A model generated the notes under the pieces. It saw only the letters and a program-made list of their open reading frames with translations, had not been told where the DNA came from and did no database searches. A stretch of 64,000 bases of DNA from an uncultured Synergistales bacterium (GTDB lineage Bacteria > Synergistota > Synergistia > Synergistales > Aminobacteriaceae), in contig CAJOEM010000002.1 in NCBI GenBank assembly GCA_905233725.1, positions 34,913 to 98,912 on the forward strand. The letters are read 5' to 3'. The number at the start of each line of letters is the position of its first letter. Within the stretch, counting starts at the first letter, position 1. Positions 23,402 through 43,704 of the stretch are shown here, piece after piece. Position numbers and translations under genes: made by a program.

Positions 23402-23854
23402 ATGCCACTAACACAAAAAATCGCCGACGATCTCAAACAAGCTATGAAAGAACGTTCTGAGCCAAAACTCTCGACGTTACGAATGCTGAAGTCTGAGCTG
23501 CAAAAATTACAGGCAGACAAAGGACGCAGCTTTGAAATCACGGACGACGATGTCTATTCAGTTATTAAACGTTTGATCAAACAACGCAAAGAAGCAGCCG
23601 AACAATATGCCGCCGGTGGAGCAGCTGACCGCGCAAAATCCGAGTTGGCAGAAATCGAAATTCTCGAGCCGTACCTGCCAAAACAAATGGACGATTCGCA
23701 ACTCGAGAAAATCATCTCAGACGCAGCAGCCGAAATTAACGCCTCGTCACCGAAAGACATGGGCAAACTGATGAAAGCTGTAATGCCAAAACTCGCCGGT
23801 CAAGCTGACGGTTCACGAGTGAAAGACAAAGTCATTGCGTTCCTGAACAGGTAA
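23402..23854 (+). CDS. yqeY: GatB/YqeY domain-containing protein
   Basis: 150-aa protein related to the C-terminal tail domain of GatB, with a proposed tRNA-amidation-like or tRNA-binding role that is not established. The YqeY pattern is visible: DLKQAMKERSEPKLSTLRML, then VIKRLIKQRKEAAEQY, ILEPYLPKQM and DMGKLMKAVMPKLAGQADG. CAGGAGG precedes the ATG by 11 nt. The full GatCAB operon lies ~21 kb downstream. Confidence 0.92.
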   Translation: MPLTQKIADDLKQAMKERSEPKLSTLRMLKSELQKLQADKGRSFEITDDDVYSVIKRLIKQRKEAAEQYAAGGAADRAKSELAEIEILEPYLPKQMDDSQLEKIISDAAAEINASSPKDMGKLMKAVMPKLAGQADGSRVKDKVIAFLNR

Positions 23855-23861
23855 TTTGCGC

Positions 23862-23899
23862 AAAAAAAAATCGAGCCGGAGTGTGGAGTGCTCCGGTTC
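23862..23899 (-). terminator. Intrinsic terminator of the predicted small RNA
   Basis: GAACCGGAG / CTCCGGCTC stem (complement of 23873-23899) followed on the minus strand by nine T residues (complement of 23862-23870). On the plus strand the stem lacks a T tract, so it points leftwards and serves the small RNA. Confidence 0.7.
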
Positions 23900-24018
23900 G
23901 TCGTGTATTATAAAGTGAAAGGCAAACTAAGAAAAGTTTAGATTTGAAATGGAAGCGGTGAACTAAATACTTTCTAAGATAATTGAAATCTGGATAAATA
24001 TTTAACTTAATCACCGGC
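23862..24018 (-). ncRNA. Predicted small RNA of ~150 nt, unknown family
   Basis: The minus strand of this gap has a complete transcription unit with no coding gene. A near-consensus promoter is followed at ~24017 by a long hairpin (CGGTGA at 24016-24011 pairs with TCACCG at 23961-23956; inside it TAAATA/TATTTA and AGAT/ATCT also pair). A second hairpin follows (AAACT/AGTTT around 23939-23924), then a GC-rich terminator stem and nine T residues. Size and layout suit a structured regulatory RNA; 6S RNA would fit by size but its closing-stem architecture is not evident. A 60-codon frame on the same strand crosses the terminator and is not convincing. Confidence 0.5.
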
Positions 24019-24023
24019 GCGAG

Positions 24024-24052
24024 ATTGTATAACTAAAATTTTTATTTGTCAA
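24024..24052 (-). promoter_or_regulatory. Promoter of the predicted small RNA
   Basis: Minus-strand TTGACA (complement of 24047-24052) and TACAAT (complement of 24024-24029, within TATACAAT) separated by exactly 17 bp. One of the best sigma-70 type matches in the window, pointing away from the aldo/keto reductase gene. Confidence 0.65.
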
Positions 24053-24089: not shown

Positions 24090-24932
24090 ATGCAACAAGA
24101 AACTTTCAAATTATCGAACGGGCTCAAATTTCCAAAAATCGGCTTCGGAACTTACAAAACAACACTCAACAACGACGCGGAAATCATAGAACTCGCAATC
24201 AAATCCGGCTACAAATATTTCGACACGGCTTCATTCTATGGCAACGAACAATTCATCGCTCAGGCAATCGCGAATTCCGGAATCTCTCGTAAAGAAATTT
24301 TTCTCGCGTCAAAACTCTGGAAAAGCGAAATGGGCTACGAAAATGCAAAACACGCTCTCGAACAAACGCTGCGAAATCTTGGGACGGATTACTTGGACCT
24401 GTACATGATCCACTGGCCCAGACCTGATTTAAAAGCCGATTGGAAGCGAATCGACATCGAAACTTGGCGCGCAATGCAGGAATTTTACGAATCCGGCAAA
24501 GTCCGCGCGATTGGCCTGAGTAATTTTCTGCCGCATCACATCGAGAATATAATCCAGAATTGCGAGATCAAACCCATGGTCAACCAACTCGAAATTCACC
24601 CGGGTCACACGCAAGAATCAGCCGTGAATTATTGCAAGGCTCATGATATTCTCGTGCAAGCCTGGAGCCCGATTGGACGCGCTAGAGTTCTGAACGACGA
24701 ATTGATTCTCGAACTTGCGGAAAAATATCAAGCCTCACCAGCACAAATCTGCGTGAAATTCTGCGTGCAAAAAAATATCATGCCGCTGCCGAAATCATCA
24801 AATCCCGAACGTATGCGCGAAAATCTCGAAAGTCTGAACGTGAATATTTCTCAGGAGGATTTCTGGAGACTCGACACAATGCCGCCGTTAGGTTGGGGTG
24901 GTGAACATCCGGATCGCGAACGATTATCATGA
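24090..24932 (+). CDS. Aldo/keto reductase
   Basis: 280-aa NAD(P)H-dependent carbonyl reductase, AKR5-like. Catalytic tetrad visible: Asp and Tyr in YFDTASFYGNE, Lys in SKLWKSEM, His in YMIHWPRP. Further family motifs are GLSNFLPHHIE, VNQLEIHPG and MPLPKSSNPERMRENL. Substrate unknown; relatives reduce 2,5-diketogluconate and small aldehydes. It overlaps the next gene by 4 bp (ATGA). CGGAGA lies ahead of the ATG. Confidence 0.92.
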   Translation: MQQETFKLSNGLKFPKIGFGTYKTTLNNDAEIIELAIKSGYKYFDTASFYGNEQFIAQAIANSGISRKEIFLASKLWKSEMGYENAKHALEQTLRNLGTDYLDLYMIHWPRPDLKADWKRIDIETWRAMQEFYESGKVRAIGLSNFLPHHIENIIQNCEIKPMVNQLEIHPGHTQESAVNYCKAHDILVQAWSPIGRARVLNDELILELAEKYQASPAQICVKFCVQKNIMPLPKSSNPERMRENLESLNVNISQEDFWRLDTMPPLGWGGEHPDRERLS

Positions 24933-43523: not shown

Positions 43524-43598
43524 GGGTGGTTAGTTCAGAGGTAGAACGCTTCCTTGACACGGAAGAGGTCAGAAGTTCGATTCTTCTATCACCCACCA
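43524..43598 (+). tRNA. tRNA-Val (GAC)
   Basis: Seven-pair acceptor GGGTGGT/ATCACCC (one G-U), D-loop with AGTTCAGAGGTAGAAC, anticodon stem-loop CTTCC-TTGACAC-GGAAG giving GAC, T arm GTTCGATTC, and encoded CCA. Reads GUC and, by wobble, GUU. Confidence 0.97.
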
Positions 43599-43613
43599 TT
43601 TAATTCAATAGCC

Positions 43614-43704
43614 GCGGGGGTGGCGGAATTGGTAGACGCGCAAGACTAAGGATCTTGTGACCAATTTAAGTGTCGTGGGAGTTCGATTCTCCCCCTCCGC
43701 ACCA
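43614..43704 (+). tRNA. tRNA-Leu (AAG)
   Basis: Class II tRNA with a long variable arm. Acceptor GCGGGGG/CCTCCGC (one G-U), D arm TGGCGGAATTGGTAGACGC as in leucine tRNAs, anticodon stem-loop CAAGA-CTAAGGA-TCTTG giving anticodon AAG, T loop GTTCGATTC and encoded CCA. A34 would need deamination to inosine (TadA) to read several CUN codons; most bacteria use GAG instead. Confidence 0.95.

Follow-up and report, generated by a model that had tools for sequence, protein, structure and literature searches.

RoxS and FsrA of Bacillus carry C-rich regions that pair with mRNAs, Shine-Dalgarno sequences included (PMC8216469), and a 2022 survey of annotated small RNAs lists only one for the phylum Synergistetes (PMC9029176). 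Here we analyse a locus in 64,000 nucleotides of DNA from an uncultured Synergistales bacterium (hereafter 'the window'), in which positions 23862-24018 of the minus strand very probably specify a separately transcribed small regulatory RNA. Like RoxS/RsaE and FsrA (Bacillus, Staphylococcus), the predicted RNA is small, has its own promoter and terminator and displays exposed C/U-rich segments of a kind that can pair with Shine-Dalgarno sequences. It differs from them in sequence and fold and has no match in Rfam; moreover, the family to which it probably belongs is confined to one Synergistaceae genus and has a core of the form CUUUUC/ACCUUUCAG, not one made of C runs.

An Rfam search with the window element and its relatives, a check that the first-pass annotation of this DNA had proposed, gave no match at the curated cut-offs, and no described family fits the window element. 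The 6S RNA (RF00013) is similar in size and likewise has a stand-alone promoter and terminator, but the window element lacks both the central-bubble rod and the pairing 5' and 3' ends; the annotation had already remarked that the 6S architecture is missing. We exclude 6S RNA, since the element has no 6S match, its ends are unpaired and the genome's own 6S candidate lies on another contig (G000:C5:24232-24365, L117; 41.3 bits and E 4.5e-7, narrowly below the Rfam curated cut-off). Matches to 6S RNA were found throughout the order, whose 6S RNAs the Rfam model seems to under-serve. For sroD (RF00370), one relative (G019) reaches a sub-threshold 27.5 bits against a cut-off of 50, whereas the window element has no such match; the terminator hairpin lies inside the matched stretch (L107 1316-1383) and probably accounts for the score. 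The RNA family is so far undescribed.

A minus-strand unit between yqeY and a reductase gene

The features of the unit are collected in Table 1. It converges on yqeY, which is preceded on the plus strand by HIT and rpsU genes, and diverges from the aldo/keto reductase gene; the first-pass annotation had likewise put it on the strand opposite to both neighbours. Elsewhere in the window, two tRNA genes stand side by side on the plus strand (43524-43701).

Table 1. Features of the minus-strand unit and its flanking genes (window coordinates)
Feature	Position	Strand	Remarks
YqeY (PF09424)	23402-23854	+	flanking gene
Terminator U-tract, nine T	23862..23870	-	read from the sequence
GC-rich terminator hairpin, 9 pairs	23872..23900	-	relatives retain the stem with altered base pairs
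C/U-rich core part 2, CCUUUCA	23916..23922	-	proposed Shine-Dalgarno-pairing seed; nearly invariant in relatives
Small second hairpin	23923..23940	-	weak; displays CUUUUC at its loop
C/U-rich core part 1, CUUUUC	23931..23936	-	also in relatives, at a similar distance to part 2; unpaired 0.71
Long 5' hairpin	23956..24016	-	specific to the window genome
Predicted transcription start	24016..24018	-	placed from the promoter position, ~7 nt after the -10 hexamer
-10 hexamer TACAAT	24024..24029	-	TAnAAT in relatives
-35 hexamer TTGACA	24047..24052	-	TTGACA in relatives upstream of family-model matches
Aldo/keto reductase (PF00248)	24090-24932	+	flanking gene

The promoter, previously noted as TTGACA-17 bp-TACAAT, indeed has a 17-nt spacer and agrees with the consensus at 11 of 12 positions. 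By itself it is no proof, because at the looser threshold of the scan (9/12) chance alone would give 1.6 sites in every 1300 nt. The fold of the predicted transcript (157 nt) is strong, at -29.1 kcal/mol against -18.3 +/- 3.3 for shuffled sequences (z -3.25), none of 200 shuffles folding as well. Taken alone, the 5' hairpin (23955-24018) has a z of -4.2 and contains the three nested stems that had been named (CGGTGA/TCACCG, TAAATA/TATTTA and AGAT/ATCT), while the 3' part of the transcript has a z of -3.8. The GC-rich terminator with its nine T residues was likewise recovered, and the second hairpin is present as described, although it is weak. What has to be revised is the emphasis on the long 5' hairpin, which is genome-specific and not the conserved part: in relatives it is missing or swapped for a shorter ATATTG/CAATAT hairpin. 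No second copy of the unit was found in a search of the window's own genome.

A conserved family with its own promoter in one rumen genus

In 43 genomes of the genus, which comprises uncultured, mostly rumen, Synergistaceae, yqeY served as anchor and the DNA downstream of it was read from the opposite strand. About 33 of these genomes carry a unit at the same place and in the same orientation, and four more carry one elsewhere. The family surfaced only through yqeY synteny, a DNA similarity search of 100 relatives having returned no whole-length copy. The TTGACA/TAnAAT promoter is invariant among its members, which also share a GC hairpin and a C/U-rich core (CUUUUC…ACCUUUCAG). In most of the genomes TTTGACA is followed by 16-17 nt, TAnAAT and then CCGGCTCAA..CAATTCAG; further 3' come usually the short ATATTG/CAATAT hairpin, CTTTTCGG, ACCTTTCAG, ACAACAGCCGG and the complementary CCGGCTTG.

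R1, a covariance model built on the transcribed stretch without the promoter, identified a single strong copy in 37 of the 43 genus genomes, scoring 55 to 129 bits. One further observation concerns G027, which has two full copies on contigs C71 and C191 and a weak partial third match; the double copy may reflect a strain mixture or a duplication. Of the 30 R1 matches checked, 29 have TTGACA upstream, a sequence that the model does not contain, and the thirtieth (L077) was overlooked by the automated check, since the same genome's sequence L054 does bear the promoter. The model gave no convincing match among the 137 genomes of the order outside the genus (180 in all), 38 of which belong to the same bacterial family. 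The weak matches outside the genus (G134, G135 and G140; 27-31 bits) were rejected as chance, none of them having promoter and core together. When 85,000 species genomes were scanned with an exact pattern, 15 contigs were hit, every one from Synergistaceae or Synergistales; their sources were goat, deer, sheep or reindeer samples, or MAGs bearing the label Fretibacterium.

The alignments show three conserved parts: promoter, C/U-rich core and terminator hairpin. Hairpin 1 is dispensable, and is absent from four sequences (L058, L067, L110 and L111) in which the core is kept and the linkers vary; a pairing seed would be expected to behave in this way, staying while the 5' hairpin is lost and the linkers drift. 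Beyond the core, the family shows poor conservation of structure: RNAalifold applied to a MAFFT alignment predicted pairs only in the nearly invariant terminator, while terminator stems with changed but still paired bases were seen by eye. Most relatives (e.g. L044, L059, L061) have UUGAAACCUUCC in place of the U-tract after the hairpin, and in most relatives the tail UUGAAA is able to pair with UUUCA of the core. The UUGAAACCUUCC tail may represent imperfect termination, or it may belong to the RNA and mask or switch the core. The RNA of one genome (L116, G033) contains the core motif twice (UUACCUUUCUAAAUACCUUUCAG).

The first-pass annotation had inferred an independently transcribed regulatory RNA and had named conservation of promoter, stems and terminator in close relatives as a way to challenge it. 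Promoter, orientation, core and terminator are all kept, and together with the copies at other loci this supports that reading.

Relation of the window copy to the family

Against R1 the window copy scores 8.0 bits (E 0.14 in 2 kb), which is not significant and does not exceed the score of a nearby spurious site, and a transcript-only profile built from all other members did not find it. A profile that includes the promoter, built with the window left out, gives the site the top rank in the whole window (E 0.009 in 64 kb), a result that leans on the promoter. The core was defined as CUUUUC followed by CCUUUCA within 16 nt of transcript; in the window CTTTTC is followed by CCTTTCA 8 nt later, a pair that occurs in 0.05% of dinucleotide shuffles. 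The window copy also has the TTGACA-16/17-TAnAAT promoter convergent to yqeY and a GC-rich 3' hairpin. Two other genomes, G024 and G036, escape or nearly escape R1 and bear, immediately beside yqeY, the promoter, CTTTTC and AACCTTTCA together with a terminator that has a U-tail; we regard them as divergent intermediate forms that bridge the family to the window.

Orthology of the window copy to the genus family is likely, not proven, because its sequence has no R1 match and yet place, promoter, core and terminator are retained. The competing view is that the window element is a real small RNA unrelated to the family, a new RNA having replaced the old one beside yqeY. Lack of significant similarity in the transcript and the large genome-specific 5' hairpin speak for such a replacement; against it stand the same place, direction, promoter, CUUUUC..CCUUUCA pair and terminator. 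A search of the window's own genome with R1 revealed no better copy elsewhere (best 15.9 bits, E 1.6), and the two intermediate forms speak against replacement as well, so that we consider it unlikely.

The C/U-rich core and its possible partners

Across the fold ensembles of the family, part 2 of the core is unpaired with a probability of 0.75 against an average of 0.56, and in the window, part 2 with its flanking G reaches 0.84 (average base 0.52). Part 1 is not extra exposed in the ensembles of relatives (0.50), compared with the higher value in the window (Table 1). The family has the conserved, accessible, pyrimidine-rich seed that is characteristic of the RoxS/RsaE type. The 3' end of 16S rRNA reads ..ACCUCCUUUCU and CCUUUC equals part of it; the core can therefore pair with Shine-Dalgarno sequences of the GAAAGG type. 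Genes in the window have mostly GGAG-type Shine-Dalgarno sequences, GAAAGG preceding 2 of 47. A search for Hfq gave no match in the 43 genus genomes, 38 of which encode a KhpA-type KH protein.

Targets were sought by simple patterns, TGAAAGGT..ATG and UGAAAGGU before AUG. The former occurred 201 times against 57 in a reversed control, many of the occurrences being start codons of the form ATGAAAGGT or lying inside genes. The matches were mostly coding, and no gene was matched across species; single ones precede a permease gene (G000) and solute-binding protein genes (G013, G040). In a single case (L203; G000:C23:19641) the gene of an NCS2-type-like permease, so classed by eye, has UGAAAGGU at its start site, complementary to the core.

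The reading we favour, with moderate confidence, is that the window element belongs, as a divergent member, to a genus-specific family of trans-acting, Hfq-independent, Shine-Dalgarno-pairing RNAs. Transcription from a sigma-70-type promoter that looks constitutive, up to an intrinsic terminator, would give an RNA of ~155 nt; its core (CUUUUC...CCUUUCA) would pair with GAAAGG-type Shine-Dalgarno regions of several mRNAs, cover their start sites and so lower translation, acting in trans without Hfq. We adopt this working model because the core is conserved, its second part is exposed and CCUUUC is identical to part of the 16S 3' end, and because no Hfq was found in the 43 genomes; in Bacillus, RoxS represses translation in this manner (PMC8216469).

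The same core could instead be bound by protein, core and hairpins titrating or modulating an RNA-binding protein with no mRNA pairing involved. The C/U-rich composition, the single-stranded second part and the widespread KhpA-type proteins are compatible with this, and the UUGAAA-UUUCA pairing might serve as a switch or as a site for protein. The RNAs contain, however, no repeated sites such as those of CsrA or RsmA sponges, GGA being hardly repeated, and structure is poorly conserved beyond the core; we rate protein binding as rather improbable.

A purely cis role, in which the convergent transcript controls rpsU-yqeY as a 3' antisense RNA or insulates these genes from the reductase gene, would suit the nearly constant convergent position by yqeY. 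Four genomes (G007, G019, G014 and G020) nevertheless carry the unit at a distance from yqeY, complete with promoter, core and hairpin, and in four others (G003, G010, G023 and G033) a gene intervenes between the two. The reductase gene is often absent beside the unit in relatives, and yqeY neighbourhoods of other genera hold terminators only. The displaced units, intervening genes and missing reductase argue against such a role, which we judge very unlikely. A short protein-coding transcript, or a chance pairing of promoter and terminator, has next to no probability: the annotation had seen no credible coding frame, and a 60-aa GTG frame in the window (23832-24014, minus strand) crosses the terminator, extends into yqeY and is not matched in relatives, the MQF..-type frame of a few relatives starts 9 nt after the -10 hexamer and leaves no room for a ribosome binding site, no frame is common to the members or has an evident ribosome binding site, and promoter and core are conserved across the genus.

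Returning to Shine-Dalgarno pairing in trans, rpsU encodes S21, a ribosomal protein located near the anti-Shine-Dalgarno. It is conceivable, if a long shot, that the family is a broad regulator of translation that mimics part of the 16S anti-Shine-Dalgarno tail, is coupled by position to rpsU-yqeY and tunes GAAAGG-type start sites genome-wide. A small RNA that is conserved, single-copy and promoter-driven in almost every species of a common rumen genus without recognisable Hfq would offer a first handle on RNA regulation in that genus, and the family alignment supplies probes, a seed that can be mutated and a model that could be added to Rfam.
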